Below, piece by piece: positions 5,832 through 49,288 of a stretch of DNA of 64,000 nt. The stretch's first letter is position 1. The number at the start of each line of letters is the position of its first letter. The notes under the pieces are model-generated. The model was not told where the DNA came from. It saw only the letters and a list, made by a program, of their open reading frames with translations, and searched no databases. Made by a program: the position numbers and the translations under genes. Origin of the DNA: Archangium violaceum (GTDB lineage Bacteria > Myxococcota > Myxococcia > Myxococcales > Myxococcaceae); the NCBI RefSeq assembly GCF_016859125.1, contig NZ_CP069338.1, positions 620,001 to 684,000 on the forward strand, given 5' to 3'.

Positions 5832-5844
5832 AGGGAGGAACGGC

Positions 5845-7783: not shown

Positions 7784-7975
7784 TGGGAGTTTCTCCGGGG
7801 GTAAGAAGATGAAGCGGACAGGCGCTTTACCGTTTCCGTGCTTGTCAGGCGAGCGGACGATCTCCTCGAACCCGTGACGTGGCGCATCATGTCGGATGCC
7901 CAACTACTCCACCCTGGGCGCATCAGGGGCGCGGGGAGGGATTGAGGTAAGACAGCGCGACTCGGGGGGGTTAGG

Positions 7976-8329
7976 ATGAAAGCAATGGCCGAACAGTCCC
8001 CCCCCTATTGGGTCCTCATCTCGGTCCTGTTCAGCTCGCAGCCGCTGTCGCCCACGCTCGCCATGACGCTGCACCAGGCGGCGTTCGACCTCTACCGGCG
8101 CGGCGAGTCGGTGCAGCCGGTGGCGGGAGATCTGCTCACCGGCAAGGTGCACAACCTGCGCAAGGACGTGCAGATGGGGAGCATCTCGGGTCCCGCCTTC
8201 GAGGCGGAGATCGAAACGGAGCGCGGCTCCGGCATCGTGCGCTTCCTGCTCACCCGCCAGGGGCTGGAGATGATGCAGGCCCAGCCGCCCGAGCCGCCCC
8301 CGCCGCCCCGCCCGAAGTACCTCAACTGA
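7976..8329 (+). CDS. Hypothetical protein, 117 aa
   Basis: A small soluble protein of unknown function. The body (residues 30-95) predicts short strands and helices, and the C-terminus is a proline run (PPEPPPPPRPKYLN). No known domain is recognised. ATG codons at 7976 and 7985 are both possible; GGGGGG lies seven to twelve bases before the first. It is divergent from the amylase gene and converges with the metallopeptidase-like gene, leaving 15 bases between stops. Confidence 0.65.
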   Translation: MKAMAEQSPPYWVLISVLFSSQPLSPTLAMTLHQAAFDLYRRGESVQPVAGDLLTGKVHNLRKDVQMGSISGPAFEAEIETERGSGIVRFLLTRQGLEMMQAQPPEPPPPPRPKYLN

Positions 8330-8344
8330 GCGGCGCGGCGAGCC

Positions 8345-9025
8345 TCAGTGCAGCCGCGCCTTCTCCACGCCCGCCTTGCGCTGGGGCTTGGGCTTCGAGG
8401 GACGGGGCCGCTTGTGCGTCACCATGCGGGCGATGCCGTAGTAGAGCTGATCCTCGGTGTACACCTTGCGCACCCGGGGCGTGCCGGGGACGTAGGCGGG
8501 CCCGGGCCGCTCCAGCCACTGCAGCACCTTCAGCTCCCCCGAGTACGCGAAGGGCTCGAGCACTTCCTTCGGGCACTGCTTGAGGTAGCGGCGCACCAGC
8601 GGGCGCAGGCGGCGGGTGAAGTCCTTGCCCAGCACCGAGTGCCTCCGCCCCGCGTGCAGCGTGCCGTCGAAGCGCCGCGACATGTGGAAGAGCTCGTGCA
8701 TCACCGTCTCGACGCGGCCCTTGGGCGTGGAGGAGCGGAAGAAGAGTGGGCGCAGGGTGATGCAGTAGAGCATCCGCCGGCCCTTGATGCGGATGATGGG
8801 CTTGCGGCGTCCGGTGCGGTCCGTGCTGCGCCCGCCCCGGAAGCACAGCGGCTTCACCGTGCCGCGCGAGGCCCGCCTCGCCTCGCCAGCGATGACCAGG
8901 ATGCGGCTGGCCCTCACGTGGGAGAACTCGGGCATCTTCGCGGCGATATCGCGAATGAGCGCGCGGACGGCCTTGTTGAAGTTCGGGCGGCGTGTGGCCA
9001 CGGTGTAGTCAACAGTGTACAGCAA
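8345..9025 (-). CDS. Putative zinc metallopeptidase-like protein (HELFH motif)
   Basis: A basic protein of about 226 residues. The segment VMHELFHMSRRFDGTLH contains an HExxH zincin motif, followed further on by GRRH, which could supply another ligand. The arrangement recalls SprT-like or minimal metalloprotease domains, but no family can be named with certainty. The rest is Arg/Lys-rich (for example HKRPRPSKPKPQRK), which suggests nucleic-acid contact. The start is uncertain: no ATG fits, so the TTG at 9025 behind AAGGGG was chosen, and the frame stays open to 9115. The divergent lipoprotein gene begins at 9067. Confidence 0.65.
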   Translation of the reverse strand: MLYTVDYTVATRRPNFNKAVRALIRDIAAKMPEFSHVRASRILVIAGEARRASRGTVKPLCFRGGRSTDRTGRRKPIIRIKGRRMLYCITLRPLFFRSSTPKGRVETVMHELFHMSRRFDGTLHAGRRHSVLGKDFTRRLRPLVRRYLKQCPKEVLEPFAYSGELKVLQWLERPGPAYVPGTPRVRKVYTEDQLYYGIARMVTHKRPRPSKPKPQRKAGVEKARLH

Positions 9026-9066
9026 AACCCCTTGAGGCCAGCCGGAACCCGCCACACCTTCGCGCC

Positions 9067-9903
9067 ATGCGTTCCGCCCCGCGTGCCATCGTCCACCTCC
9101 TGACGCTCGCCGCATGGGTCGCCGGGTGTGCCTCCACGCCGTCCGCGGCCCCCATGGCTCCCGTCTCGCTCGGCGCCGAGGAGACCCGCGTCACCACGCA
9201 GGGCCTCACCGAGATGGGACTGAGCTACTCCGGCCAGCTCACCAGCCCCGGACCCGCAGTGCTGGAGAAGGCCGACTACGAGCTCGTCTCCGATGGGCAG
9301 GTGGTGGAGACGGGCACGGCGCCGTTGGGCGTCACCCTCACCCCGGGTGCGCCCACGCCCTTCTCCTTCCAGGCGGATGCCGCCTACGTGCGCACCCCGG
9401 AGGACCTGCGGGCGCTGAGCGAGCGGGGGGGCACCCTGCTCGTGGCGCTGCGTGGCACGCTGACGGTGCGCTCGGGTGACGCCGTCCAGACGCTCCCCTT
9501 CGCCGCCTCCCGGCAGGTGCGCGTGCCCCGGCTGCCCGTGGTGAAGCTGGAGGGCCTGGATGGAGCGCGCTACTCGGAGGAGAAGGTGGACCTCATGGTG
9601 CGCCTGGCGGTGGAGAACCCCAACCCCTTCCCCCTGCGGCTGGAGGGGCTCAGCTGGGCCCTCACCGTGGGGGGCCGGAAGTTGAGCCAAGGCACGCAGG
9701 GCAGGTACGACACCGTGGACGCGGCGGCCACCGGGGTGTATCCCCTGGAGGTGGCGGTGACGAAGGAGACGTGGGGGCAGGACGTGAGGGCGCTCATCGC
9801 CAAGGGGACACTGCCGTATGAGATCGCGGGCGAGCTCACCGGCCCGCTGGTGCGTGTCTCCTACTCGCTGTCCGGAGACGTGAAGCTCAACGTGTCGCGG
9901 TAG
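9067..9903 (+). CDS. LEA-type-2 (WHy-like) lipoprotein
   Basis: A 278-residue exported lipoprotein. The signal peptide ends in a lipobox (LAAWVAGC, Cys at 21). The mature part holds two similar beta-sandwich repeats. The second includes the LEA14 signature VRLAVENPNPFPLRLEGLSW, where the family's NPNxxPL motif is clear. LEA-2 lipoproteins are common and functionally undefined in myxobacteria. The ATG at 9067 was chosen because the signal peptide begins there. The stop TAG overlaps the GTG of aat by one base, so the two are translationally coupled. A shorter paralogue lies at 22967-23437. Confidence 0.85.
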   Translation: MRSAPRAIVHLLTLAAWVAGCASTPSAAPMAPVSLGAEETRVTTQGLTEMGLSYSGQLTSPGPAVLEKADYELVSDGQVVETGTAPLGVTLTPGAPTPFSFQADAAYVRTPEDLRALSERGGTLLVALRGTLTVRSGDAVQTLPFAASRQVRVPRLPVVKLEGLDGARYSEEKVDLMVRLAVENPNPFPLRLEGLSWALTVGGRKLSQGTQGRYDTVDAAATGVYPLEVAVTKETWGQDVRALIAKGTLPYEIAGELTGPLVRVSYSLSGDVKLNVSR

Positions 9904-28714: not shown

Positions 28715-29185
28715 TCAGACCCCCTCGTCGGGCAGGAGCGTCAGCAGCAACTCATCGTCGGGCCCGTGCGGGAGCCAACCGGGCGGTGGTGGCGTGGCAC
28801 GAAGCGCTGCCCGAGCCTGCTCGACGCGCTTCTCATGGGTTGTTGGGGTAAGGGAACTCCACAATCCGATTGCCTTGGCAACCTTGAAACGGTTGGCGTC
28901 ATCCATAACGGTCGGCCAGCCGTTTGGGAGACATGCCCACAGTTCTCGCACGAGTTGTCCGCGGACAAGGCGAGTGACCCGATGGCTTCGCTCCGCCTCG
29001 GCAAGCAACCCGCTGAACACCTGCACCCCGGCGACGTCGTCCTTGCCAAGCTCCTCGGCCAGCGCCACCAGCGAAGCGGTCGGACGAGCATCTGCGAAGG
29101 CGGAGAGCGAGTCGTAGCCCCGCTCGCGGACCCGCTCGTACAGGCGCACCTTCCAGTTGCCCTCCCAGGAACGTCCGTCGGTCAT
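28715..29185 (-). CDS. Putative immunity protein of the adjacent lipoprotein toxin
   Basis: A 156-residue soluble, mainly helical protein with no recognised domain (SWEGNWKVRLYERVRERG, ASLVALAEELGKDDVAGVQV, PNGWPTVMDDANRFKVAKAIGLW). The ATG at 29185 overlaps the toxin stop (TGATG) and has GGAG within the toxin 3' end, so synthesis is coupled. A small unrelated soluble gene tightly coupled downstream of a polymorphic-toxin lipoprotein is the usual place for the immunity partner. The immunity role is therefore inferred from position only. Codon use is less extreme in GC than in the flanking genes, which is consistent with transfer. Confidence 0.7.
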   Translation of the reverse strand: MTDGRSWEGNWKVRLYERVRERGYDSLSAFADARPTASLVALAEELGKDDVAGVQVFSGLLAEAERSHRVTRLVRGQLVRELWACLPNGWPTVMDDANRFKVAKAIGLWSSLTPTTHEKRVEQARAALRATPPPPGWLPHGPDDELLLTLLPDEGV

Positions 29186-30699
29186 CACCTTCTCCAAGGA
29201 GTGAAATTCATCGGGATGTCGTAGAACTTCATACGATCCGCGACGATGTCCATGACCTCGTTCCGCGTCAACATCCGGCCAGCTTCAAACTCGGCGTCGC
29301 GCAGCGCCTTCATGATCATCCGGTTCCATTCACCGGGCCATGTGCGCCCCAGTTTCCAGTTCCCACCGCCGTGGATGGCCTCGTGGTGCGCCTGCTCCAG
29401 CCTGACGCAGAACTCGTCGATGTCCATCTCGCCGGTGAAGCCGCGCTTCTCGAACCACTCGCGGAACTCCTTCGGCAGGACGTGGTGCCGCGGCGGCTCG
29501 GCCATGCCAGCCCCCGCCTTGCCCGTCTCGTGCATGGCCCCCACCTCGGGCCCATCGCCCAGCGCGTCGCGCACGCCCCTCGGCAGCTCGCCATGCGCCT
29601 GCGCGAGCATCACCTGGCCCGCCTGAATCCGCACGGCGGCGCTGACAACGGGCAGGGAGAGGACACCCGCGCGCACCAACTGGCGCACCCTCTCCACCCA
29701 CTCGGCGGACACGACAATCCGCGTACCCATCATCACCCCGTCGCCGCCTACCGCCAGGCCAATACCCACCAGGGCGGGCGCGGACGGAGGCGCCGAGGGC
29801 AGCGAGAACCTCATCGTCGAGAGCATCGTGACAGTCTCGATGGCTTCCTTGAGCACCAGCATCTTCTGGAGGTGCTCCGCCGCCACGCGCATTCTCTCCA
29901 CGGTGGTGGCGAATTCGTCGGTGAGATGGCCTACCAGCAGCGGCACGTCTCGCGCCGCGGCCTCCACCTGCTCGTGCTCTCGCGAGGAGAGCGCCCGCAT
30001 GGCGGGCTCAAGCATTTCCTGCCTGCGCCACATGTCCGCGAAGAGCGTCTCCACGGGGTAGAGGTGCTGTTCGAGCGCGACGTCAGCGAGGTTGAGGAAA
30101 TCGAGCCAGACGGCGAGCAGGAGCGAGCCCACCATGGCGGCTTCCAGCCGTGGGCCGGCCACGCGCAGCAGGGCGAGCTGAATGTCCGGGTCCTCCACCT
30201 CCGACGCGGCGCTGGCCAGCCGGGTGGCGGCGGTGAGCTGGGCCTCCATCCACCTCAGTTGCGTGGCGCCGTAGTCGGCGTAGCGGAGGAAGACACCGTT
30301 TCCACTGGCGAGGCCCCGGCCACTGGCGTTGAGCCGGGCGAACTCTCTGGAGATGCGGCGGGTGGTGCCTGACACTTCGCGAAGAGCACCGCGAAACGCC
30401 AGCTGGGCCGCGAGGGCCCGCTGCCGCGCCTCCCTTTCCGCGCGGTCCAGGCCCGCCGCCGTCACCTCCCCGCGGGCGGCCCGGTGCCGGTGCAACCGCT
30501 CCGGTGTCTCGGACTCGGGCGTTGAGGCGAGGAGGCGGGGAGACTCGACACCCGGCCCCTGGGCCGATGCAGGCCCCGTGGCCTCGCCCGACGTGTAGCG
30601 CAGGCTCATCCCCCTGCCGGGTGGTGGCGTCAGCGACACGCAGCCGGTGGACAGCAGGGCCATGGCGGAGAGCAGCAGCACCAGCAGCGCGGACGTCAT
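29185..30699 (-). CDS. SitA-like/DUF2380 lipoprotein, probable nuclease toxin
   Basis: A 504-residue lipoprotein. The signal peptide MTSALLVLLLSAMALLSTGC ends in lipobox STGC. Residues 60-400 are helical, Ala/Arg-rich, with a membrane-like stretch (VGIGLAVGGDGVMMGTRI). The last 110 residues begin RHHVLPKEFREWFEKRG and continue AHHEAIHGGGNWKL, W and WN residues. This is a His-rich pattern like the HNH/treble-clef nuclease end of DUF2380 or SitA6-type myxobacterial lipoproteins. Known SitA toxins are passed between cells by outer-membrane exchange and kill kin that lack the immunity gene. The ATG at 30699 follows GGAGG. The toxin assignment is by family resemblance. Confidence 0.75.
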   Translation of the reverse strand: MTSALLVLLLSAMALLSTGCVSLTPPPGRGMSLRYTSGEATGPASAQGPGVESPRLLASTPESETPERLHRHRAARGEVTAAGLDRAEREARQRALAAQLAFRGALREVSGTTRRISREFARLNASGRGLASGNGVFLRYADYGATQLRWMEAQLTAATRLASAASEVEDPDIQLALLRVAGPRLEAAMVGSLLLAVWLDFLNLADVALEQHLYPVETLFADMWRRQEMLEPAMRALSSREHEQVEAAARDVPLLVGHLTDEFATTVERMRVAAEHLQKMLVLKEAIETVTMLSTMRFSLPSAPPSAPALVGIGLAVGGDGVMMGTRIVVSAEWVERVRQLVRAGVLSLPVVSAAVRIQAGQVMLAQAHGELPRGVRDALGDGPEVGAMHETGKAGAGMAEPPRHHVLPKEFREWFEKRGFTGEMDIDEFCVRLEQAHHEAIHGGGNWKLGRTWPGEWNRMIMKALRDAEFEAGRMLTRNEVMDIVADRMKFYDIPMNFTPWRR

Positions 30700-30981
30700 C
30701 AGCGCCTCCAATGGGGAACTCCCACTCTAGCGGGCACCTCCGACGAATCCGGATAGACGAGAAAAGACGGGTGAATGCGGACGGATTCCCTGGCCCGGTG
30801 ATTCCAACCGCTCAGGTCACCTGGGGCCAATTGATGAAGCCACGGCGCCCTCGTTTCCGCCCTGGCATGCCACTGGGGAAGACCGTTCATCCCCGGTTTC
30901 CGACTGCTCGCCCGCCCGGCTCCCCATGTCAGGGGCAGACGAGACACTCTCCGGATGACCCCCTCTCCTCCGGAGCACACC
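30700..30981. other. Intergenic region upstream of toxin operon
   Basis: No gene is supported. It should contain the promoter of the minus-strand toxin/immunity operon and possibly that of the plus-strand small ORF and kinase gene. Base composition from about 30740 to 30840 is slightly richer in A/T than coding DNA. No clear operator or terminator was seen. Confidence 0.4.
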
Positions 30982-34590: not shown

Positions 34591-35577
34591 ATGGCGGTGA
34601 ATGTCGTGGCGTGGACGGATCCGGTCCGTCGCTCCGAGCCGGCACGGCTGCGCTCCTGGTACCTCGCGTGTCCCTCCGAAGCCCTCCGGCCCGGACAGGT
34701 GCGGGGCTGGAGCCTCGGAGGGCGGGAGCTCGTGCTCTTCCGCGGCCAGAGTGGCCGCGTCCAGGCGCTCTCGGCCCATTGCGCCCACATGGGGGCCCAC
34801 CTCGCGCACGGCACCGTCATCGGCGAGCACCTGCGCTGCCCCCTGCACCACTGGCGGTTCGACGGCAGTGGCATCTGCCGCGCGGCGCCAGGACACTCGA
34901 ATCCCACCGGCAGGCCCGGACAGCGGGCGTTCCCCGTGGTGGAGCGCTACGGCGCCATCCTCGTGTTCAACGGGCCCGTGAGCCTCTTCCCCCCACCCGA
35001 GGTGGGCGAGCCCGGCCTGCTGTGGCGCACCGGACCGCCGGTGACCGTGCGGTGCTCGTGGCTCCCGCTCGCGGCGAACTCCTTCGACATCGAGCACCTG
35101 CGCACCGTGCACCACCGCGAGCTCTGGGATGCCCCCGTCGTGGAGCGCCCGGATCCTTTCACGCTCCGGCTGCGCTACACCTCGCGCGTCATCGGCACCG
35201 GAGCCAGCGACCGGTTGATGAAGGCGCTGTCGGGCAATCGCATCGGCGTGACCATCACCCTCCACGGAGGCACGCTCCTGTCCGTGGAGAGCGACCTCGG
35301 CCGCACCCGGAGCGCCCTGCTCGCCGGCTTCCGCCCCGCCCCCGACGGCGTGTCGGTGTTGATGTCGTTCGCCGCGCGCCCGGGCCGCGTCCCGGGACTG
35401 GAGCGCCTGCGCCTCGCCGTGTCGCGGTGGCTCTTCACCTCGTTCCTGCGCAGGGACCTGTCCGTGCTCGAGGGGATGCGCTTCAACCCCGCCGCCGCCG
35501 CGGCCGATCCCGTGCTGCGCCACCTGCTCGACTTCGCCGCCCAGCTCCCGGAGGACTCCGATGCCGAGCACGGGTGA
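34591..35577 (+). CDS. Rieske non-haem iron oxygenase
   Basis: A 328-residue oxygenase component. The Rieske [2Fe-2S] ligands are CAH (Cys64, His66) and CPLHH (Cys83, His86). The catalytic part shows NSFDIEHLRTVHH, with Asp166, His169 and His174 as likely bridging and mononuclear iron ligands. Family members insert oxygen into aromatic, sterol or lipid substrates using a separate reductase. It is the first gene of a three-gene operon: its 3' end overlaps the desaturase gene by 17 bases, and that gene overlaps the PAP2-synthase gene by four. This suggests that its substrate is a lipid or isoprenoid made by those partners. No ferredoxin reductase gene adjoins. Confidence 0.92.
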   Translation: MAVNVVAWTDPVRRSEPARLRSWYLACPSEALRPGQVRGWSLGGRELVLFRGQSGRVQALSAHCAHMGAHLAHGTVIGEHLRCPLHHWRFDGSGICRAAPGHSNPTGRPGQRAFPVVERYGAILVFNGPVSLFPPPEVGEPGLLWRTGPPVTVRCSWLPLAANSFDIEHLRTVHHRELWDAPVVERPDPFTLRLRYTSRVIGTGASDRLMKALSGNRIGVTITLHGGTLLSVESDLGRTRSALLAGFRPAPDGVSVLMSFAARPGRVPGLERLRLAVSRWLFTSFLRRDLSVLEGMRFNPAAAAADPVLRHLLDFAAQLPEDSDAEHG

Positions 35578-36481
35578 GGACGTCCCCATTCCGGCCACGC
35601 TCAACACCGTGCTCCTCGCCACCGCCCTGCTCACCTGCGCCGGGTGTCTCTGGCTCGCCTCGCACGCGGAGTCGCTCACCGTGCGGCTGCTGTCCGCGGG
35701 TGCGTTCTCCTATGTGAACAACACCGTCTTCTCGCTGCTCCACGAGGCGACCCACGGCGTACTCCATACGTCCCGGCGCGCCAATGACTGGCTCGGACGG
35801 CTCGCGGCGGCCTTCTTTCCCACGTCGTACACGCTGCAGCGCACCTTCCACCTCACCCACCACCGCAACAACCGCACCGAGCTGGAGCAGTTCGACTACC
35901 TGCGCCCCGGGGACAACCGCTTCCTCAAGCACGCGCAGTGGTACTCCATCCTCACCGGGCTCTACTGGGCCTTCGTCCCGCTGGGCTGCATCGCCTTCGC
36001 GCTCTTCCCCGGGCTGCTGCGACGGCTCCGCGGCACCGGCACCCGCTATGGCGAGCAGACCGGGGCCGAGGCCTACCTCGGACGGCTCGAGGACGCGCCG
36101 GGCTCCACCATCCGGCTCGAAGCGCTGCTCACGCTGGCCGTGCAGGTGGGGCTGGTGCTCGGGCTGGACCTCACCGCATCCGGATGGGCGCTGTGCTACG
36201 CGGCGTTCGCGATCAACTGGAGCTCGCTCCAATACGCGGACCATGCCTGGTCTCCGCTGGACGTGCGCGATGGGGCGTGGGACCTGCGTGTGGCCGCTCC
36301 CGTGCGCTGGCTGTTCCTCAACTACCACTACCACCGCGCCCACCACCGGCACCCCCGCGTGCCCTGGCTCTACCTGGGCCGCTACGTGGACCCGGAGGTG
36401 CCCCGGCCCTCGTTCCTGCGCATCTGGCTGTCCATGTGGCGCGGCCCCCGGCCCCTCCCGAGCCCCGTGGAGGAGCGATGA
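35561..36481 (+). CDS. Membrane fatty-acid-desaturase-family protein
   Basis: A 306-residue di-iron membrane enzyme. The three histidine boxes are HEATH (61-65), HLTHH (97-101) and HYHRAHH (256-262), ending in the HxxHH box. Four or more hydrophobic helices surround them. The family includes acyl desaturases and also carotenoid ketolases and hydroxylases, so desaturation, hydroxylation or ketolation of a lipid is possible. The ATG at 35561 lies inside the end of the Rieske gene, and its TGA overlaps the next ATG (ATGA). The three products are probably made together and act on one membrane substrate. Confidence 0.9.
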   Translation: MPSTGEDVPIPATLNTVLLATALLTCAGCLWLASHAESLTVRLLSAGAFSYVNNTVFSLLHEATHGVLHTSRRANDWLGRLAAAFFPTSYTLQRTFHLTHHRNNRTELEQFDYLRPGDNRFLKHAQWYSILTGLYWAFVPLGCIAFALFPGLLRRLRGTGTRYGEQTGAEAYLGRLEDAPGSTIRLEALLTLAVQVGLVLGLDLTASGWALCYAAFAINWSSLQYADHAWSPLDVRDGAWDLRVAAPVRWLFLNYHYHRAHHRHPRVPWLYLGRYVDPEVPRPSFLRIWLSMWRGPRPLPSPVEER

Positions 36482-37995
36482 GCGCGAGGACTCCCCTCTG
36501 CGGCTGGCCCCGCCGTGACGAGCTTCTCCTCACGGGCTCGATGGCGTTCGGCTTCGCGCTCTTCTTCCTCGTCGTCTACGGCGGCGCGAGCGCGGTGACC
36601 GGCTTCTACACCTGGGGCGTGCGCGTGGACCTGCCCTTCGAGCGCCACATCCCCTTCGTGCCCGCCTGGGCCGCCGTCTACGTGAGCATGGACCTGCTGC
36701 TCCTGCTCTCGCTGCTCGTCTTCCGGACGTGGCGCGAGATGGCGCCCTTCGTGCTCGCGCTCTGCCTGGAGACCGTGCTGGGCGCCGCGTGCTTCCTGCT
36801 CCTCCCCGTCGAGGTGGCCTGGCCTCCCCGCGAGGTCTCCGGAGGATGGGCCAGCGTCTTCTTCCTCGCCGACACGATGAACCTCGAGCGCAACTACCTG
36901 CCCTCGCTGCACGTGGCCTTCGCGTGTACCGCCGCCCTGGCCTATGGCGAGCGTGGAGGCTGGCTCGCGCGGAGTCTGTTCGGCCTCTGGGCCATGGCCA
37001 TCACCGCGTCCACCCTGCTCATCCACGAGCACCACCTGGCCGATGTGCTCGCGGGTGCGATCCTCGCGTGGGGCACGTGGCGCGTCGTGGCGTCTCGTGC
37101 CTCCCGCGCGGACTTCCTCGAGGCCATCCGGGTCGAGGCCCTCTGCGCTCGGGAGCTGTACCTCTTCTCCCGCCGCCACCTGCGCTACCTGCTGATCGCC
37201 CTGGGCCTCTACCGCTACTCTCTGCCCCGGTGGCGCGCCACGCGCGTGGCCCGAGCCGGGTTCTGCTTCCTCCAGCTCGTGGATGACGTGCTGGACGGAG
37301 ATCGCCCCATCGACGGAGAGCCGCTCGACCAGGTGGACGCCCTCCTCGGCCAGATGGAGACCGGCCGCTGGAGCGACGAGGGCTCGGCCTCCACGCTGGG
37401 CCGGGTGTTCCTCACCGGGCTCGGGGACGACGGTGCGCGAGCCGAGGCGTTGCAGCTCGTGCGCACCATGCGGAAGGACCGCGAGCGCGTGCGGGAGCGC
37501 CGGGAGCTCGAGGCCGAGGCGCTCCGCTCGCACCACCGGGACACCTTCCGGTTGTCCGTGGGACTGATGCTGCACGTGGCCGGAGTCGAGGTCCGTGCGT
37601 CGGACTCGCCCGCCCTGCTCGATGCGTTCGGCTGGTGCTCCACGATGCGCGACCTGCGCGAGGACCTGGACAAGGGCCTGCTCAACGTGCCGGCCGAGGT
37701 ATGCCGGGCAGTGCGCGCGGAAGGCGTGGACCCGCTTCGCTACGAGGACCTGGTGGGCTCGGTGGCGGGACGGGCCTGGATGCTGGCCGAGTACGGCCGC
37801 GCGCGGGCCCTGCTCGAGCAGGCCGCGGTGGAGCTGTCCGCGCTCGAGGGCCGCTCCGGGGTGGGCCTGCTGCGGCTGTTCCACCGCTCCATCAGGGGCT
37901 TCTGGGCGAAGCGGCTGCCTCGGAAGATGCCCTTCCTTCGCGAGTCCTCCGAGGTCAGCTCGTGGCCTTCCGGCGCGCCGACAGGCGGCCGATGA
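36478..37995 (+). CDS. Fusion of PAP2-type lipid phosphatase/transferase and squalene/phytoene-synthase-like domain
   Basis: A 505-residue two-domain protein. Residues 15-205 are a membrane PAP2_3-like domain with five or six helices, NYLPSLHVAF (139-148) and HEHHLADV (183-190; His185-x3-Asp189), the signature of inositolphosphorylceramide-synthase-like PAP2 enzymes. Residues 215-480 are helical and carry LQLVDDVLDGD (Asp269, 270, 273, 275) and DLREDLDKGLLNVP (Asp392, 396, 398). These are the two Asp-rich motifs of squalene/phytoene-synthase-type prenyl transferases. The inferred job is making or rearranging a prenyl diphosphate and removing or swapping its phosphate. The ATG overlaps the desaturase stop. 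The 3' end overlaps the opposite gene by 41 bases. Confidence 0.88.
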   Translation: MSARTPLCGWPRRDELLLTGSMAFGFALFFLVVYGGASAVTGFYTWGVRVDLPFERHIPFVPAWAAVYVSMDLLLLLSLLVFRTWREMAPFVLALCLETVLGAACFLLLPVEVAWPPREVSGGWASVFFLADTMNLERNYLPSLHVAFACTAALAYGERGGWLARSLFGLWAMAITASTLLIHEHHLADVLAGAILAWGTWRVVASRASRADFLEAIRVEALCARELYLFSRRHLRYLLIALGLYRYSLPRWRATRVARAGFCFLQLVDDVLDGDRPIDGEPLDQVDALLGQMETGRWSDEGSASTLGRVFLTGLGDDGARAEALQLVRTMRKDRERVRERRELEAEALRSHHRDTFRLSVGLMLHVAGVEVRASDSPALLDAFGWCSTMRDLREDLDKGLLNVPAEVCRAVRAEGVDPLRYEDLVGSVAGRAWMLAEYGRARALLEQAAVELSALEGRSGVGLLRLFHRSIRGFWAKRLPRKMPFLRESSEVSSWPSGAPTGGR

Positions 37996-38572
37996 CGAGG
38001 CCGATGACGAGCATCCCCACCGTCCCGATGCCACCGAAGGTCACCGCCGCGATCTTCACCTTGTCGAGCACTGGGTTGTCGAACACGTTGGTCGAGTAGT
38101 GGAAGGCGGCGATGAGCCACTGGTCTCCCTCCTTGACCAGGGTGCAGGTCCATCGGCCGTTGACGACGATGTCCGTGCCGTCGGTGAGCAGGTAGTGATC
38201 GGTCGAGGAGCCCTGGGCGATGCCCGTGTTCCCGTACAGGCGGGTCAGCTCATCCACCTCGAACCTCGCGGTGATTTTCTGCACCACGCGGTCCGGGCCG
38301 TTCATCATCTGGTCGTAGTAGGCCCGGATGGAGTCCTTGCCCACGCGCACGTCGTTGTTCATCGTGGTGAAGACCACGTTCGGGTGCACGTGAGAGAGCA
38401 ACCGGTCGAGGTCCCGCGCGTTGAGCGCCTGCTCCATGTCGTTCTTGATGGTGCGCAGCGCCTGGTGGGTGGCCTCGACATCGGCCGTGTTCCCACCGGC
38501 CGCCTGTGCCCGAAGTGCCGCCGGCGAGAACAGCACCAGACACGCCATCACACAGCCGACAATCCGATTCAT
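37955..38572 (-). CDS. SnoaL/DUF4440-like (NTF2-fold) exported protein with C-terminal helix
   Basis: A 205-residue protein. The signal peptide ends in LRAQA. Residues 40-165 form an NTF2-like domain (NDMEQALNARDLDRLLSHVHPNVVFTT, GKDSIRAYYDQM, WTCTLVKEGDQWLIAAFHYS) as in SnoaL/DUF4440 proteins. The last 40 residues contain a hydrophobic helix (FGGIGTVGMLVIGLVIGRL) and a basic tail, so the domain is membrane-anchored on the periplasmic side. The start ATG at 38572 follows GGGAGG. The 3' end overlaps the PAP2-fusion gene by 41 bases in convergent orientation. Function unknown. Confidence 0.82.
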   Translation of the reverse strand: MNRIVGCVMACLVLFSPAALRAQAAGGNTADVEATHQALRTIKNDMEQALNARDLDRLLSHVHPNVVFTTMNNDVRVGKDSIRAYYDQMMNGPDRVVQKITARFEVDELTRLYGNTGIAQGSSTDHYLLTDGTDIVVNGRWTCTLVKEGDQWLIAAFHYSTNVFDNPVLDKVKIAAVTFGGIGTVGMLVIGLVIGRLSARRKATS

Positions 38573-38627
38573 GGGGCCTCCCGAAAGGGCGCCCATCCTA
38601 GTGGAGTGTCCACGTGTTGCGCATGCG

Positions 38628-38649
38628 CCCTCTCCCTCTGGGAGAGGGG
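38628..38649. repeat. Dispersed intergenic hairpin repeat, copy 4 (short)
   Basis: CCCTCTCCCTCTGGGAGAGGGG, the hairpin core of the repeat family without the TCGGGGTGAGGG flank. It lies between two minus-strand genes, 22 bases after the SDR stop. Confidence 0.65.
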
Positions 38650-38670
38650 ACATCCACGGAGCCCCGAGAA

Positions 38671-42773: not shown

Positions 42774-43799
42774 ATGAACGTCTCGCCCTCGCTCGATAGA
42801 CAGCCTCTCGTCACGGTCACCCCCGACGGGCTCCATTGTCCGGCGGGGGGTTTCCACATCGACCCCTGGCGGCCCGTGGACCGCGCCCTCATCACCCACG
42901 CCCACGGCGACCATGCCCGATGGGGCAGCCAGCGCTACCTCGGCGCGAGCCCCGGTCTGGGCCTGCTGCGCAAACGTCTGGGCGCGGACGCGAACATCTC
43001 CACGCTGGGTTATGGCGAGCGCCTGTCCCTCGGCGAGGTGACGGTCAGCTTCCACCCTGCGGGCCACGTGCTGGGCAGCGCCCAAATCCGCATCGAGCAC
43101 CGGGGCGAGGTGTGGGTCGTGTCCGGCGACTACAAGCGCGACCCGGATCCGACGTGCGCGCCCTTCGAGCCCATCCGCTGCGACACCTTCATCACCGAGG
43201 CCACCTTCGCGCTCCCCATCTACCGCTGGGACGACACGCGGCTCGTCGCCGAGGAGGTTCTGCGCTGGTGGGACGGCAACCGCGAGGCGGGCCGGGCCTC
43301 GGTGCTCTTCTGCTACGCGCTGGGCAAGGCGCAGCGGTTGCTCGCGGAGCTCGCCCGGCTCACGGACCGCGAGGTGCTGGTGCACGGCGCCACACACGCG
43401 CTCGTGGAGTGCTACCGCGAGGCCGGCGTCCGCATGCTCCCCACCCGCCCCGTGTCCGAGATGGAGAAGGGCACCTCCTACGCCGGAGCGCTCGTGCTGG
43501 CCCCGCCCAGCGCCGCCGGCTCCACGTGGATGCGCCGCTTCGGCGAGCACGAGACGGGCTTCGCCTCGGGGTGGATGCGCGTGCGCGGCAACCGCCGCCG
43601 CCGGGGTCATGACCGCGGCTTCGTCCTCTCCGACCACGCGGACTGGCCGGGCCTCCTACGCACCGCGAAGGAGACGGGTGCCTCGCGCGTCCTCGTCACC
43701 CACGGCTCCAGCGACACGCTCGCGCGCTACCTGCGCGAGCACCAGGGCATCGACGCGGCGCCACTCGCCACCCCCTTCGAGGGCGAGACGGAGGACTGA
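42774..43799 (+). CDS. Ligase-associated DNA exonuclease (metallo-beta-lactamase fold)
   Basis: First gene of the four-gene ligase-associated DNA repair cluster. The 341-residue protein has the MBL/beta-CASP layout: ITHAHGDHARWGS is the HxHxDH metal motif, HPAGHVLGSAQIRIEH and VVSGDYKRDPDPTC supply further ligands, and LVTHGSSDTLARYL ends the fold. It belongs to the mRNA-processing-like exonuclease family found beside LigB/LigD-type bacterial ligases. The ATG is at 42774, and the next gene's GTG begins four bases after the stop. Confidence 0.92.
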   Translation: MNVSPSLDRQPLVTVTPDGLHCPAGGFHIDPWRPVDRALITHAHGDHARWGSQRYLGASPGLGLLRKRLGADANISTLGYGERLSLGEVTVSFHPAGHVLGSAQIRIEHRGEVWVVSGDYKRDPDPTCAPFEPIRCDTFITEATFALPIYRWDDTRLVAEEVLRWWDGNREAGRASVLFCYALGKAQRLLAELARLTDREVLVHGATHALVECYREAGVRMLPTRPVSEMEKGTSYAGALVLAPPSAAGSTWMRRFGEHETGFASGWMRVRGNRRRRGHDRGFVLSDHADWPGLLRTAKETGASRVLVTHGSSDTLARYLREHQGIDAAPLATPFEGETED

Positions 43800-43802
43800 C
43801 CC

Positions 43803-45398
43803 GTGCGACGACTCGCCGACCTCTACGACGCGCTCGACTCCACCACCTCCACCAACGCCAAGGTGGAGGCGATGGTGGCGTACTTCCGCGACACGCCTCC
43901 CGAGGACGCCGCGTGGGGACTGTTCTTCCTCACCGGCCGCCGCCTCAAGCGGCTCGTGGCCCCCAAGGCCCTCCGCCAGTGGATCCGCGAGCTGACCGAC
44001 ACCCCCGAGTGGCTCTTCGACGAGGCGTATGCCGTCGTGGGTGACCTCGCCGAGGTCATCGCGCTGCTGCTCGACCAGAACGAGCGCCCTCGCGAGCCCG
44101 AGGAGCTGCCCCTGTCCCGTTGGTTGGAGGAGCGTCTGCTGCCCCTGGCCGGGCTCTCCCTCCCCGAGCAGCGCGAGCGCATCACCGGCTGGTGGCACGT
44201 GCTCCCCCGCCGCGAGCTGTTCCTCTTCAACAAGATGCTCACCGGCGAGCTGCGCGTCGGCGTCTCCGACACGCTCGTGGTCCGCGCGCTCGCGCAGCAC
44301 GCGGGGTTGCCTCCGGCCTCCGTGTCCCACCGCCTCATGGGCACCTGGGCCCCCTCGCGCGCCTTCTTCGAGCAGCTCGTCGCCCCGGACGTCTCCGATG
44401 GCGACCGCTCGCGCCCTTATCCGTTCTACCTGGCCAGCCCCCTGGAGCAGCCCGTGGAACAGCTCGGCGAGCGCGAGGGCTGGCTCGTCGAGTGGAAGTG
44501 GGATGGCATCCGCGGTCAGCTCATCCGCCGTCAGGGCGGCGTCTTCCTGTGGAGCCGCGGCGAGGAGCTCATCACCGAGCGCTTCCCGGAGATCTCCGAG
44601 GCCGCCGCCTCCCTTCCCGATGGCACCGTGCTCGATGGTGAGGTGCTCGCCTATGAGAATGGGCAGCCGCTGCCCTTCAGCCGCCTCCAGCGCCGCATCG
44701 GGCGACAGAAGCTCACCCCCAAGGTGCTCGCCGAGGCCCCCGCCGCCTTCATGGCGTATGACCTGCTCGAGCAGGAGGGGCGGGATGTTCGCACCCTGCC
44801 TCTCCGCGAGCGCCGCGCCCGGTTGGAGGCGTTGCTTCGCGACAGGCCGATGTTTCCCGTGTCACCGGCCATCGAGGCGGGCTCGTGGGCCGCACTCGCC
44901 GAGGTCCGGCGCGAGTCCCGGTCTCGCAACGTCGAGGGCTTCATGCTCAAGCGGCTCGAGTCCCCCTACCAGCACGGCCGCAAGCGCGGGGATTGGTGGA
45001 AGTGGAAGATCGATCCCTTCACCGTGGATGCCATCCTGCTCTACGCGCACCCCGGTCATGGCCGCCGCGCCTCGCTCTATACGGACTACACCTTCGCCGT
45101 CTGGAACGGCGAGGAGTTGTTGCCCATCGCCAAGGCGTATTCCGGGCTGACCGACGAGGAGATTGGTCGGCTCGACCGGTGGATTCGTGCGCATACGCGG
45201 GAGAAGTTTGGTCCTGTTCGCTCCGTGGACCCCGTGCAGGTGTTCGAGCTTCACTTCGAGGGCATTGCAGCCTCTCCACGGCACAAGTCCGGCATTGCCC
45301 TGCGGTTCCCTCGCATCGCACGGTGGCGCTCGGACAAGACGCCTCGTGACGCGGACTCGCTCGCGCAGTTGAAGGAGTTGCTGCATGCCCCCGCGTAG
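43803..45398 (+). CDS. ATP-dependent DNA ligase (LigB/ligase-cluster type)
   Basis: A 531-residue ligase. Residues 1-205 form the N-terminal DNA-binding domain. Motif I is EWKWDGIRGQ with adenylated Lys232, motif III near DGTVLDGEVLAY, motif IV EGFMLKR, and motif V DWWKWKID. The C-terminal OB domain ends around HKSGIALRFPRIARW (motif VI region). It seals nicks with ATP, unlike the essential NAD-dependent LigA. It starts at GTG 43803 and is coupled behind the exonuclease gene. Its 3' end overlaps the long form of the helicase gene by 14 bases. Confidence 0.94.
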   Translation: MRRLADLYDALDSTTSTNAKVEAMVAYFRDTPPEDAAWGLFFLTGRRLKRLVAPKALRQWIRELTDTPEWLFDEAYAVVGDLAEVIALLLDQNERPREPEELPLSRWLEERLLPLAGLSLPEQRERITGWWHVLPRRELFLFNKMLTGELRVGVSDTLVVRALAQHAGLPPASVSHRLMGTWAPSRAFFEQLVAPDVSDGDRSRPYPFYLASPLEQPVEQLGEREGWLVEWKWDGIRGQLIRRQGGVFLWSRGEELITERFPEISEAAASLPDGTVLDGEVLAYENGQPLPFSRLQRRIGRQKLTPKVLAEAPAAFMAYDLLEQEGRDVRTLPLRERRARLEALLRDRPMFPVSPAIEAGSWAALAEVRRESRSRNVEGFMLKRLESPYQHGRKRGDWWKWKIDPFTVDAILLYAHPGHGRRASLYTDYTFAVWNGEELLPIAKAYSGLTDEEIGRLDRWIRAHTREKFGPVRSVDPVQVFELHFEGIAASPRHKSGIALRFPRIARWRSDKTPRDADSLAQLKELLHAPA

Positions 45399-47580
45399 GC
45401 GCTCTCAGGGCGGGCTCACGGGTCCTCGTGGGGGAACTCGAGTTCATCCCATACCCTCACCCCCGTCCCCTCTCCCAGAGGGAGAGGGTTCAACTCGAGT
45501 TTCTCTTTCCGTGGGTGTCGGGGAGGGACTCCTTTCCTGGTTTCGTTCTCAGGGATGGGCTCCTTTTCCCTTTCAGCTTCAGGCCTGGGAGGCCTACTCC
45601 CTCGGCCAGAGCGGCCTCATTCATGTCCCCACCGGCGCCGGGAAGACCTATGCCGCCTATATCGGCCCCCTCTCCGAGGTCGCTCATCATCGACAGAAGG
45701 GGTTGCAGATCCTCTATGTCACCCCGCTTCGCGCCGTCTCCCGTGACATCGAGCTCGCGTTGAATGCGCCTCTGTCCGCCCTCGATGTCGACCTCACCGT
45801 CGAGAGCCGCACCGGTGATACCTCCTCCTCCGTCCGCCGCCGCCAGCGCGAGCGTCTCCCCGAAGTCCTCATCACCACCCCCGAGTCCCTCTCCCTCCTG
45901 CTGTGCAACGAGCGCGCGCATGAGCTCTTCGCCACCCTGCGCTGTGTCATCGTCGACGAGTGGCATGAGCTCCTCGGCGTCCTCGCCCTCCACCATGGCT
46001 CCATCGACCGCGAGGCCCGTGAGCGCGTGGAGCGCGGGCTCAAGGACGGCAGCGTGCGGCTCGTCGTCTGTACCTCCTCGTTGGACCTCGGGGTGGACTT
46101 CGGCCCCGTCGAGCGCGTGGTGCAGGTGGGCAGCCCCAAGGGCATCGCCCGGACCCTCCAACGCGCCGGCCGCAGCGCCCACCGCCCCGGCGCCACCGCG
46201 CACCTCCTCTTCGTCCCCACTCATGCCCTCGAGCTGGTGGAGATGGCCGCCGCCCGCGAGGCGCTCGCCCACCGCGAGGTGGAGCCCCGCGCCCCCCTGC
46301 GTCAGCCCCTCGACGTGCTCGCCCAGCACCTCGTCACCTGTGCGCTCGGTGGCGGCTTCACCCGCGACAAGCTGTTCTCCGAGGTGCGAGACACGCTCGC
46401 CTACCAGGACCTTTCCGAGGAGGACTTCGACCGCACCCTGCTCCTCGTGACGGAGGGCGGCCCCACCCTGCGCGCCTATCCGCAGTTCCGCCGCGTCCAA
46501 CGGCTCGAGGACCGATACGTGGTGGCGGACGCGCGCATGGCCCGGCTCCACCGCCTCAACGTGGGCACCATCGCCTCGGACGCCACCGTGGAGCTGCGCT
46601 ACCTGAAGGGCGCCCGGCTCGGCACGGTGGAGGAGTCCTTCGTGAGCCGCCTCCGCCCCGGTGACACCTTCCTCTTCGCCGGCAAGCGGCTCGAGTTCCG
46701 CCTCATGAAGGACCTCACCGCCTATGTGAAGGCCGCGAAGGAGCGGGCCTCGGCCACGCCCCGCTGGAGCGGCGGACGTCTGCCCCTCTCCGGCTCGCTG
46801 GCCGCCGCCGTGCGCCGCGCCTTCCACGCCGCTCGCGAGGGCCGCCTCGACACCGCGGAGCTCGAAGCGGCTCGTCCCGTGTTGGAGGCCCAGGCCCGCC
46901 TGTCCCGCCTTCCCTCCCAGGACGCCTGCCTCGCCGAGCTGTGCCAGAGCCGTGAGGGCCACCACCTCTTCCTCTACCCCTTCGAGGGCCGCCTGGTGCA
47001 CGAGGGCCTCGCCGCGCTGCTCGCCCTGCGCCTCACCCGGCTGCGCAAGGCCACCTTCAGCCTCGCGGTGAATGACTATGGGCTGGAGTTGCTCACGCCC
47101 TCGCCCTTCCCCTTCGAGGAGGCGCTGCGTCCCGCGCTCTTCACCCGCGAGTGGCTGGTGGAGGACATCCTCGAGAGCGTCAACCTCGGCGAGCTGGCCC
47201 GGCGTCAGTTCCGCGACGTGGCCCGCGTGGCGGGGCTGGTGATGCCGGGGTTGCCCGGTGCGCGCAAATCCACCCGTCAGGTGCAGGCCAGCGCCGGTCT
47301 CCTCTATGACGTCTTCGCCCGCTACGAGCCGGACCACCTGCTGCTCTCCCAGGCACGGCGCGAGGTATTGGAGCAGCACTTCGAACAGGTGCGGCTCGTG
47401 CGCACCCTGGAGCGATTGGAGCGCTCGCCGCTGGAGTGCATCCACGTCCCACGGCCCACGCCGCTGGGCTTTCCGCTCGTCATCGAGCGCATCGGCGCCA
47501 CCCTCTCCAACGAATCCCTGGTGGATCGGGTGGAGCGCATGAAGGAGAAATGGCTGCGCGAGGACTCCCTGTCCGCCTAG
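45385..47580 (+). CDS. Ligase-associated Lhr-like DEXH helicase, internally deleted
   Basis: A 731-residue SF2 helicase. Walker A is HVPTGAGKT (82-88), and motif II is DEWHELLG (191-198). The next residues are already VLALHHGSIDREARERVERGL, the motif IV region of the second RecA domain. The stretch usually found between, including SAT motif III and about 180-200 residues, is missing in frame (junction near 45976-45984). Motifs V and VI (CTSSLDLGVDF, QRAGRSAHRPG) and the C-terminal Lhr domains are present. The ATG at 45385 has AAGGAG upstream, but its first 42 residues translate the hairpin repeat. A GTG at 45511 is a cleaner domain start. Confidence 0.85.
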   Translation: MPPRRRSQGGLTGPRGGTRVHPIPSPPSPLPEGEGSTRVSLSVGVGEGLLSWFRSQGWAPFPFQLQAWEAYSLGQSGLIHVPTGAGKTYAAYIGPLSEVAHHRQKGLQILYVTPLRAVSRDIELALNAPLSALDVDLTVESRTGDTSSSVRRRQRERLPEVLITTPESLSLLLCNERAHELFATLRCVIVDEWHELLGVLALHHGSIDREARERVERGLKDGSVRLVVCTSSLDLGVDFGPVERVVQVGSPKGIARTLQRAGRSAHRPGATAHLLFVPTHALELVEMAAAREALAHREVEPRAPLRQPLDVLAQHLVTCALGGGFTRDKLFSEVRDTLAYQDLSEEDFDRTLLLVTEGGPTLRAYPQFRRVQRLEDRYVVADARMARLHRLNVGTIASDATVELRYLKGARLGTVEESFVSRLRPGDTFLFAGKRLEFRLMKDLTAYVKAAKERASATPRWSGGRLPLSGSLAAAVRRAFHAAREGRLDTAELEAARPVLEAQARLSRLPSQDACLAELCQSREGHHLFLYPFEGRLVHEGLAALLALRLTRLRKATFSLAVNDYGLELLTPSPFPFEEALRPALFTREWLVEDILESVNLGELARRQFRDVARVAGLVMPGLPGARKSTRQVQASAGLLYDVFARYEPDHLLLSQARREVLEQHFEQVRLVRTLERLERSPLECIHVPRPTPLGFPLVIERIGATLSNESLVDRVERMKEKWLREDSLSA
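45453..45489. repeat. Dispersed hairpin repeat, copy 5, inside or before helicase gene
   Basis: ACCCTCACCCCCGTCCCC followed by TCTCCCAGAGGGAGAGGGT is a full copy in the same orientation as the one at 5798. It sits between the ligase stop and the recognisable helicase domain. If the long helicase start is used, the repeat is translated as PIPSPPSPLPEGEG. Confidence 0.7.
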
Positions 47581-48236
47581 GCGGCACCGAGCTGGAGCTG
47601 CGTCCCGAGCGCGCCCTCCACTGGCCTGGAGGCGGCGTGCTCGCGGTGGCGGACCTGCACTGGGGCAAGCCGGAGAGCTTCCACCAGCACGGCATTCCCC
47701 TGCCCCCCGAGGTACTGGAGGACGACCTCGCCCGCCTCTCCGCCGCCCTGCATGCCACCGGGGCCCGCCGGCTGTTGCTCGTGGGAGACCTCATCCACTC
47801 GCGCCGGGGCCTCACGCGAGAGGTGGTGGAGCGCGTGGCCGCCTGGCGCACCGGTCATGACGTGGAGATGGTGCTGGTGCGCGGCAACCATGACCGGCAC
47901 CTGGACGCACTGCCTGGCGCGTGGCGCATGTCGCTGGTGGAGCCGCACCTCGACGAGGGCCCCTTCCGCTTCGCCCACCACCCCGAGCCCGCCGAGGGGC
48001 GCTACGTCTGGGCGGGCCACCTCCACCCCACGGTGCGACTGAGCACTGGGGCAGACCGGCTGCGCCTGCCCTGCTTCCACCTGGGCACCGGAGTGGGCGT
48101 GCTGCCCGCCTTCAGTGCCTTCACGGGAGGCATGGACATCCGCCCGCGCACCGGCGAGCGCCTCTTCGCCATCGCCGGTGACTCCGTGGTGGAGGTGCCT
48201 CCTCCCCGCCGTCAACGCTCCTTCGCGGGAAGATGA
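47550..48236 (+). CDS. pdeM: Ligase-associated phosphoesterase/endonuclease PdeM
   Basis: The last gene of the repair cluster, a 228-residue calcineurin-like phosphoesterase. The metal motifs are visible in order: VADLHWGKPESF, LVGDLIHSR, VRGNHDRH and YVWAGHLHP, with HLGTGVGVLPAFSAFTGG at the end as in the PdeM group. The role is nucleolytic or phosphodiesterase action on DNA damage ends. The ATG at 47550 overlaps the helicase 3' end by 31 bases and has AAGGAG close upstream. The 3' end overlaps the opposite gene by 25 bases. Confidence 0.92.
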   Translation: MAARGLPVRLGGTELELRPERALHWPGGGVLAVADLHWGKPESFHQHGIPLPPEVLEDDLARLSAALHATGARRLLLVGDLIHSRRGLTREVVERVAAWRTGHDVEMVLVRGNHDRHLDALPGAWRMSLVEPHLDEGPFRFAHHPEPAEGRYVWAGHLHPTVRLSTGADRLRLPCFHLGTGVGVLPAFSAFTGGMDIRPRTGERLFAIAGDSVVEVPPPRRQRSFAGR

Positions 48237-49288
48237 CCGAGAATGCCGTCCCGAAGGGCTCGCGCGGTCCAAGGCTCCATGCCGCGACCGAAGGTTCTCA
48301 GGTTGAGGATCTCGCCGTACTTCGCATCCTGCGCCCGGGCCAGCCAGGCATCCTCCTCGCGATAGAAGATCTGGAACACCAGCTCGTCGCCTGGATCGAC
48401 TTCGCCCCTGAGTTCGCCCATCTGGGAAAGCGTCCGCTGGTTCACGGCCTCGACCGCATCTCCCAGTTGCTCCACGACCGTGAGGGCTTGATAGACCTCC
48501 ACCAGCCCCTCCTCCGGGTTGTATCGGGCCTCGAGCCGGCGACCCTCGCCGTAGTGCTTTCGGACCTCATCGCAGATGAAAGCCTCGAGGGCCGAGACTG
48601 CCGCCTCCCGGGTCAGGCCTTTCTCCTGAACCACGCGCCGCAGCACCCGCTCACAACGCGAGCCCGTGTCCGCGCCATCGGCACCCTCTCTGGGAAGCGC
48701 GGTGTGGCGGCGCTTGCGCCACGGGAAGGGGGGAATCTCGATGCGCGTCTTCACGCTTCCGTTCCACTCCGTCTGGACTCCGTGCCGCGAGAGGGTCTCT
48801 CGAACCTCGCGGGCAATGGCGAGGCTCGCCTCGTCGTGCAGCTTCGGATCATCCTCGAAGGCACCGAAGGCGAGCATGAGGCCCATGTCCAGCACTCCGC
48901 GTTCGACATCCTGGCCATGGAAGAAGGTGGCACCGCGCACGGGCTCGTAGCTCTCCGACGCGGCGGCCGCCACATCCTCCCAGCCCTCCGACAAGGTGTA
49001 GCCCGCGTTCTGCAGCGCGATGATGCCCTGGCGATTCAGCTTCTCGAAGGCACGGTCGATCGCATCGTTCGTCGTGGGCTCGGTCCAGCGGGCCTCCTCC
49101 GCGCGCTGCTCCTCGAGCAGGCGCCGGGCGTACGCCAGGAAGTCCTCCGTCTCGTCGCTCGTCCCCAGCTCGTCTTCCACGCGCTCCTCGACGAAGGCGA
49201 ATACCTTCGTCTCGTCCAGGTATCCCCCCAGGACCGCCGCCTCCACCTGCTGGCGGAGGTAGTCACGCAGCGCCTCATCCGTGGCCAT
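48212..49288 (-). CDS. DUF6891-like domain fused to NusA-N-like domain
   Basis: A 358-residue soluble protein. Residues 72-195 (NDAIDRAFEKLNRQGIIALQ, GYTLSEGWEDVAAAA, ATFFHGQDVERG, LMLAFGAFED) resemble DUF6891. Residues 215-330 (VLRRVVQEKGLTREAAVSAL, then RLEARYNPEEGLVEVYQ, VDPGDELVFQIFYREED, ARAQDAKYGEIL) resemble the N-terminal RNA-polymerase-binding domain of NusA. The S1 and KH domains of true NusA are absent. The combination is unusual and its function unknown; contact with RNA polymerase is an inference. The start is the ATG at 49288. It overlaps pdeM convergently. Confidence 0.75.
   Translation of the reverse strand: MATDEALRDYLRQQVEAAVLGGYLDETKVFAFVEERVEDELGTSDETEDFLAYARRLLEEQRAEEARWTEPTTNDAIDRAFEKLNRQGIIALQNAGYTLSEGWEDVAAAASESYEPVRGATFFHGQDVERGVLDMGLMLAFGAFEDDPKLHDEASLAIAREVRETLSRHGVQTEWNGSVKTRIEIPPFPWRKRRHTALPREGADGADTGSRCERVLRRVVQEKGLTREAAVSALEAFICDEVRKHYGEGRRLEARYNPEEGLVEVYQALTVVEQLGDAVEAVNQRTLSQMGELRGEVDPGDELVFQIFYREEDAWLARAQDAKYGEILNLRTFGRGMEPWTARALRDGILGHLPAKER

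Follow-up and report, generated by a model that had tools for sequence, protein, structure and literature searches.

A conserved four-gene oxidative cassette with a divergent synthase-fold fusion protein in Archangium violaceum and other Myxococcota

Introduction

The phosphatase PDP1 belongs to the PAP2 superfamily. It is described as a membrane enzyme that acts on polyisoprenoid and presqualene diphosphates and converts prenyl diphosphates to alcohols (PMC8641950). Head-to-head prenyl synthases proceed via presqualene diphosphate, and in the bacterial three-step route to squalene HpnD and HpnC are separate enzymes (PMC7839719; PMC10152446). The phytoene-synthase-like carbazole prenyltransferases CqsB4, LvqB4 and NzsG provide a case where the same fold has been recruited to new chemistry (PMC7466098). 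Here we describe a locus in Archangium violaceum that combines related elements in a different way. It lies in a stretch of 64,000 nucleotides (contig NZ_CP069338.1, positions 620,001 to 684,000), referred to below as the window, from a genome of 12.68 Mb, and consists of genes for a Rieske oxygenase, a membrane desaturase, a protein (gene 3) in which a PAP2 domain is fused to a divergent squalene/phytoene-synthase-fold domain, and a convergent DUF4440 protein.

We find that these genes share one distribution over 195 Myxococcota genomes (36 genomes, one of them lacking the desaturase), and that they stand between shared neighbours in some genomes and are absent as a block from close relatives. 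The reading that we favour, with a confidence that reaches about the halfway mark, is that they form a cassette, complete in itself and patchy in its distribution, that is dedicated to an isoprenoid-type lipid.

Results

Organisation of the cassette

The features of the locus are as follows.

34591-35577, plus strand: Rieske oxygenase, 328 aa, KshA-like fold, with the cluster motif C64-H66/C83-H86 and D166-x2-H169-x4-H174
35550-35554, plus strand: GGAGG, ribosome-binding-like site of the desaturase gene, within the Rieske gene
35561-36481, plus strand: membrane di-iron desaturase/hydroxylase family protein, 306 aa, with His boxes HEATH (61), HLTHH (97) and HRAHH (258-262)
36469-36473, plus strand: GGAGG, ribosome-binding-like site of gene 3, within the desaturase gene
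36478-37995, plus strand: gene 3, fusion of PAP2 and a divergent squalene/phytoene-synthase-fold domain, 505 aa, natural ATG at 36478
36478-37101, plus strand: PAP2_3 domain of gene 3, residues ~1-208, with PSLH 142-145, H185 and D189
37099-37995, plus strand: prenyl-synthase-fold domain of gene 3, residues ~208-505
37282-37296, plus strand: first Asp-rich motif, D269-D270-V-L-D273, with Q266 upstream where Arg is usual
37648-37665, plus strand: second Asp-rich motif, R391-D-L-R-E-D396, with S388 upstream where Asn is usual
37955-38653, minus strand: DUF4440/SnoaL-like (NTF2-like) gene, fourth member of the cassette, convergent and overlapping the end of gene 3 by 41 bp

An earlier note on this DNA had reported three plus-strand genes overlapping by 17 and 4 bases. 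The coordinates are right, with 17 bp shared by the Rieske and desaturase genes and 4 bp by the desaturase gene and gene 3, and the overlaps recur in relatives. A survey of 28 loci, with starts taken as the codon closest to the expected position, left 26 that could be measured (the window and 25 relatives), L029 and L074, the latter without a desaturase gene, being set aside. The Rieske and desaturase genes overlap by 11-20 bp in all 26 with a constant frame relation, and the 4-bp overlap of the desaturase gene with gene 3 is present in 22, the remaining four having gaps of 26-64 bp; the overlaps in the window are therefore not chance. The sequence GGAGG precedes the starts of the desaturase gene and gene 3 and not that of the Rieske gene, and a promoter and terminator scan gave no signal above chance.

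The three-gene set of the earlier note also stands as a contiguous unit, with the Rieske gene, desaturase gene and gene 3 adjoining by coordinates in 35 of the 36 genomes; what it had missed is the fourth gene, DUF4440. Its enzyme classes hold by Pfam for the Rieske, desaturase and PAP2 parts. The squalene/phytoene-synthase-like part is recovered by structure and profile comparison only, and not by PF00494.

The synthase-fold domain of gene 3

A structure model of the C-terminal domain of gene 3, built with 30 homologues, has a mean pLDDT (predicted local distance difference test) of 88-97 per ten residues over positions 261-480. Aligned by structure, it matches HpnC with Z 18.0 and a root-mean-square deviation (rmsd) of 3.9 over 252 residues, followed by LvqB4 (17.4), a CrtM-like protein (17.3), CqsB4 (17.3), CrtM (16.8) and human squalene synthase (15.8). 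The alignments to HpnC, CrtM and human squalene synthase span 251-256 residues, and terpene cyclases and a geranylgeranyl diphosphate synthase come next at Z 14.0-15.1. These Z values are from the aligner's second look and not from Foldseek itself, and matches within one Z unit are treated as tied, so that HpnC is not singled out. On the model, assignment to the general class I alpha-helical isoprenoid-synthase fold is well supported, and placement in a subfamily is less so.

Profile-profile comparison agrees with this. The comparison rows come from 18 of 38 PF00494 matches, of which 17 are in frame (L088 excluded) and 16 remain when L087 is also removed. Against these 16 proteins, from the window genome and its relatives, the domain gives values of 93.6-94.8% (92.3-93.5% before removal of L088 and L087), and four control alignments give 0.1-0.4%. 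The metal-binding motifs are well preserved: D269, D270 and D273 in the first and D392, E395 and D396 in the second are invariant in 30 alignment rows, with the whole of DDVLD and R391 conserved.

Two other proteins of the window genome score above the PF00494 cut-off, one best to HpnD and CrtB and the other to squalene synthase, both under the NCBIfam equivalog cut-offs. Given these two, the domain in gene 3 is unlikely to be the squalene or phytoene synthase.

The PAP2 domain and its topology

The N-terminal part of gene 3 matches PAP2_3 (PF14378; 35.8 bits, E 9.2e-9, cut-off 27). The catalytic motifs of the PAP2 superfamily are PSxH and HxxxD, and the corresponding P142-S-L-H145 and H185-x3-D189 vary hardly at all across the 30 aligned rows, of which the Elusimicrobiota one (see below) has no PAP2 part. 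Only the first three membrane helices pass the hydropathy threshold; helices at 136-181 and 187-208 are predicted in the model, which is poor in the PAP2 region. From hydropathy, model helices and positive charges combined, the likeliest arrangement, which we propose tentatively, would have six helices, with both termini cytosolic, as is the synthase domain, and the PAP2 site on the outer face. With the two sites on opposite sides of the membrane, a direct hand-over between the domains would not be obvious.

The Rieske, desaturase and DUF4440 proteins

Rieske oxygenases carry a CxH...CxxH cluster motif, a bridging Asp and an HxxxxH iron site. The window protein matches PF00355 (E 4.6e-21), and C64, H66, C83, H86, D166, H169 and H174 are invariant in 32 Rieske rows (a truncated Rieske-like gene at locus L136 being left out). 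Its full-length model (pLDDT 86.4) is closest to KshA (Z 27.2, rmsd 3.6, 312 residues aligned) and then to SxtT (Z 25.1), and by profile KshA is again the closest (9.8e-28). The desaturase has three His boxes and matches FA_desaturase (PF00487; 98.6 bits, E 6.3e-28, cut-off 29.7). The fourth protein matches DUF4440 (PF14534; 41.6 bits, cut-off 25.2). Its gene likely starts at the ATG at 38572, and in the protein read from there residues 4-22 and 176-194 are hydrophobic; these stretches resemble a signal peptide and a C-terminal anchor, and the protein is probably exported and membrane-anchored.

We note a different array of Rieske genes at L136 (7080-11767), in a 1.6-Mb genome (G175), where a row of genes holds two for Rieske proteins, a truncated third, one whose product matches nothing in Pfam, and one that is SDR-like. 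The Rieske genes there are only distantly related to that of the window.

Distribution among Myxococcota

Profile searches of 195 Myxococcota genomes (cut-offs E 1e-5 for the synthase domain, 1e-20 for DUF4440, 1e-45 for Rieske and 1e-60 for desaturase) found the synthase domain in 36 genomes, and the DUF4440 profile picks out the identical 36. The Rieske profile finds these and two distant relatives (G023 and G175). The desaturase profile finds 35 of the 36 at more than 580 bits, with no match in G124, and a further 11 matches at 212-259 bits that represent a second family (see below). In 31 of the 36 genomes no more than about 1.5 kb separates the DUF4440 gene from gene 3; it is on a separate contig in three (G111, G113 and G117) and about 5 kb and 15 kb away in two others (G034 and G116, respectively). 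Four g26 loci have an extra gene between gene 3 and DUF4440, which in the one tested (L066) encodes a DUF418 protein. Distances for the Rieske and desaturase proteins are correlated (r 0.96, 19 loci), as expected of any vertically inherited pair, and we do not count this as evidence.

Beyond the four genes, no neighbour is common to all genera among open reading frames (ORFs) of at least 90 aa in 20 stretches. Neighbour matches that reach more widely in these stretches are confined to the strand opposite the Rieske gene, and we take them to be shadow frames.

Presence and absence of the block

Comparison of flanking genes shows the set coming and going as a unit. In two genomes of the window's own genus (G003 and G005) none of the four profiles finds a match, and 1.16-1.17 kb separates a T2SSF-like gene from a ROK gene. 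The same interval measures 4.1 kb in G002 and 4.7 kb in G004, and only the four genes were found inside it; in the window it is 5.5 kb, with an SDR gene and a LysR-like gene present besides the four, and G001 has its T2SSF gene 10 kb off. The 1.16-kb stretch (L149 11398-12565; L150 6335-7497) is 91% identical between G003 and G005 and has no meaningful match to the cassette, the best DNA match being 51 bases at E 0.001 and the best protein match having E 0.07. A second example is in genus g11, where the SDR gene is ~0.6-0.7 kb from ROK in G032 and G123, which lack the cassette. In G124, of that genus too, the cassette sits between the 97%-identical SDR and ROK genes. These comparisons indicate that the set has been gained or lost as a block in two genera.

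A version in Elusimicrobiota

A broad scan of 84,980 species genomes with short peptide patterns, carried out alongside profile searches of Myxococcota and Elusimicrobiota, returned three loci, one of which is in an Elusimicrobia metagenome-assembled genome (MAG). Here the Rieske, DUF4440, desaturase and synthase-domain genes are in a row on one strand, in an order unlike that of the myxobacteria, with BLAST identities to the window proteins of 34%, 49%, 59% and 43%, respectively. The synthase domain carries no PAP2. It is found in just one of 247 Elusimicrobiota genomes, which suggests transfer. About 32 kb away on the same contig (L142, ~1400-9300, genome G195) is a second desaturase gene, beside Rieske, GH3-family and AurF-family genes.

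Partners of related desaturases

The second desaturase family is 36-42% identical to the window desaturase, and in all 11 loci fetched (L124-L134), from hosts with and without the cassette, a PAP2 homologue is directly upstream. The two are in one open frame in L131 and L134, and PAP2_3 was confirmed by Pfam in one locus (L126, unit 7067-8744). None of the 11 stretches has a match to the window Rieske protein, synthase domain or DUF4440. A further context is in Elusimicrobiota genome G408 (L141, 680-8246), where a desaturase 43% identical to that of the window is preceded by three radical-SAM genes, a B12-binding domain scoring above cut-off in one of them. This desaturase gene faces a DUF4440-like gene (29% identity to the window protein, Pfam score just under cut-off), and two ORFs with no family match are also present. 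The desaturase, PAP2, Rieske and DUF4440 families thus appear as recurrent partners, which supports a shared pathway logic and favours no one substrate.

Other features of the window

A weak PF00494 match at 48428-48622 (15.4 bits) falls inside an unrelated-looking 358-aa ORF and was dropped as chance. At 28715-30711 a lipoprotein-like gene is beside a small gene; compared with L021, its C-terminal part is 88% identical and an N-terminal part 63%, and the two genes could be a toxin/partner pair with domain exchange. At 42774-48236 nuclease-like, ATP-dependent-ligase-like, helicase-like and phosphoesterase-like genes are in a row, the first three of which are also together in L021, L074 and L149-L152 (where the stretches are cut). 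We take this row to resemble the known ligase-associated DNA-repair set.

Discussion

A proposed pathway

The earlier note had suggested that a prenyl chain is built, dephosphorylated or transferred, and then oxidised twice, and had recognised no described pathway with this gene set. We likewise found none in the literature searched, which is weak evidence, with most subscription journals outside its coverage. Chain building by the synthase domain is plausible, given Asp-rich motifs that are kept and conserved Arg and Asn positions that are changed; dephosphorylation or transfer followed by two oxidations is a scheme that we infer, as we do its substrate class, membrane sides, step order and all of the activities. 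In this scheme the C-terminal domain of gene 3 would couple two allylic prenyl diphosphates or rearrange them, or act on just one, with the Asp-rich motifs holding Mg2+. The fused PAP2 domain, its site probably periplasmic, would then remove or transfer the phosphate or diphosphate, leaving in the membrane an alcohol or an ester of a head group. Unsaturation and oxygen would be introduced by the di-iron membrane desaturase and then the KshA-like Rieske enzyme, and the NTF2-like DUF4440 protein may bind, carry or isomerise the product.

A more specific form of this proposal, which we put forward tentatively and as appreciably less probable than an isoprenoid-type lipid in general, is that the synthase domain represents a new prenyl-coupling class that releases a diphosphate (e.g. 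cyclopropyl, presqualene-type), which PAP2 would turn into an alcohol or phospho-ester for oxidation by the desaturase and Rieske enzymes. By analogy with the presqualene diphosphate intermediate and the separation of HpnD from HpnC, a synthase that stops at a diphosphate and is fused to a phosphatase would be chemically reasonable. If true, Archangium and three more myxobacterial genera would share a family of terpenoid membrane lipids that searches with family profiles could miss, since PF00494 fails to recognise the key enzyme.

Several observations weigh against an isoprenoid-type product. PF00494 matches neither gene 3, nor its C-terminal half, nor the locus in a whole-genome search; Pfam, NCBIfam and PDB sequences likewise gave no notable match to the synthase domain, and a Foldseek search with the two-domain model found no PDB match at E <=0.001 (best 2.7e-3). 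Gln266 takes the place of the Arg three residues before DDxxD, and ahead of RDxxED Gly/Ala385 and Ser388 stand for Gln and Asn, whereas the canonical Arg, Gln and Asn are present in all 17 in-frame PF00494 rows; this rule is drawn from the rows compared and not from a published one. Because of these replacements classical head-to-head coupling by the domain is doubtful. Since fold and metal motifs are kept and canonical positions are not, we refrain from classing it with the squalene/phytoene synthases; it may still work like one. No gene making prenyl diphosphates or desaturating carotenes recurs near the block in the 20 stretches, in which no targeted test for such genes was made. At the G124 locus (L047/L074) the synthase domain comes immediately after the Rieske gene, with desaturase and PAP2 missing and DUF4440 kept; PAP2 is thus dispensable, being absent here and in the Elusimicrobiota version. 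Part of the set may also act on a non-isoprenoid lipid, because second-family desaturases pair with PAP2 with no synthase domain nearby, and another desaturase homologue faces a DUF4440 gene beside radical-SAM genes.

Alternative explanations

These contexts lead us to take seriously, as a possibility well short of even, that a core of PAP2_3 and desaturase modifies a glycero- or sphingolipid, with PAP2_3 as head-group phosphatase or transferase, the synthase fold co-opted for binding or for catalysis other than on prenyl substrates, and hydroxylation of the acyl chain or head by the Rieske enzyme. The position of PAP2 directly ahead of every second-family desaturase examined, with no synthase-domain match there, fits such a core, as do the replaced Arg and Asn positions. 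It accounts less readily for the Elusimicrobiota version, which has no PAP2 and still keeps Rieske, DUF4440, desaturase and synthase domain together, and for two Asp-rich motifs that are invariant in 30 of 30 rows. It is less probable again that the domain moves a prenyl group to an aromatic or other small acceptor, as NzsG, CqsB4 and LvqB4 do, with the Rieske and desaturase enzymes oxidising the product. LvqB4 and CqsB4 are tied with HpnC as fold matches (within one Z unit), and the carbazole enzymes were recruited from this fold with both Asp-rich motifs kept (PMC7466098); however, the 20 stretches, where no targeted test was made, show no recurrent gene for building a ring or carbazole alongside the block, and we regard acceptor prenylation as unlikely.

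The remaining two explanations have progressively less in their favour. We think it quite improbable that these are variant crtB, crtW and hydroxylase genes, or hpnC genes, tailoring carotenoids or hopanoids in a known pathway. By fold the synthase domain matches HpnC best, and the desaturase scores weakly with CrtW and CrtR of NCBIfam; the scores (25.3 and 17.5 bits) are, however, far under the cut-offs of 350 and 475, the Rieske protein reaches only 53.8 bits against an equivalog cut-off of 600 for the 4beta-methylsterol monooxygenase SdmA (NF052579), and HpnD/CrtB-like and squalene-synthase-like genes are present elsewhere in the genome. That the adjoining genes are merely co-transcribed and share no pathway seems very improbable indeed. 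The myxobacterial DUF4440 gene is on the opposite strand, 5-15 kb off in two genomes and separated by an intervening gene in the four g26 loci, as might be expected of unconnected genes. Against this, the four genes occur in another phylum in a changed order and are present or absent as a block, and their shared distribution contradicts it: the earlier note had named unrelated phylogenetic distributions as a sign against its proposal, and what we see over the 195 genomes is a single one.

Significance

Myxobacteria are heavily mined for natural products. A conserved oxidative cassette in 36 of 195 Myxococcota, with a central enzyme that the standard family model misses, would point to an overlooked product in well-studied genera. 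Close relatives with and without the block between shared neighbours offer a clean genetic test, and the synthase domain, as a natural squalene-synthase fold with an altered active site, would be informative on chemistry beyond head-to-head coupling.

Comparison with known systems

HpnC and the HpnCDE route, CrtM, CrtB and squalene synthase resemble the window synthase domain in fold and in having two Asp-rich motifs. The window domain differs in that it is unseen by PF00494, has its Arg and Asn replaced and is fused to PAP2; in comparison with HpnCDE, no recurring HpnE-type partner was noticed near the block, and the PF00494 relatives are elsewhere in the window genome. CqsB4 and LvqB4 are similarly alike in fold (Z 17.3-17.4), with Asp-rich motifs in common, whereas the gene neighbourhood of these and NzsG is different, no acceptor pathway is seen in the window and identity is 15-16%. 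PDP1 has a cytosolic active site (PMC8641950), whereas the window PAP2_3 residues are predicted to face outward and the domain is fused to the synthase domain. KshA (3-ketosteroid 9alpha-hydroxylase) is the closest to the Rieske protein in both fold and profile, with identity of just 17% over the model, a likeness of fold and profile only. The loci pairing PAP2 with second-family desaturases have two of the window's families likewise side by side, and no match there to Rieske, synthase domain or DUF4440. The novelty of the cassette is in a new combination of known enzyme superfamilies, in the fusion, which is likewise new, and in a synthase clade that is divergent.

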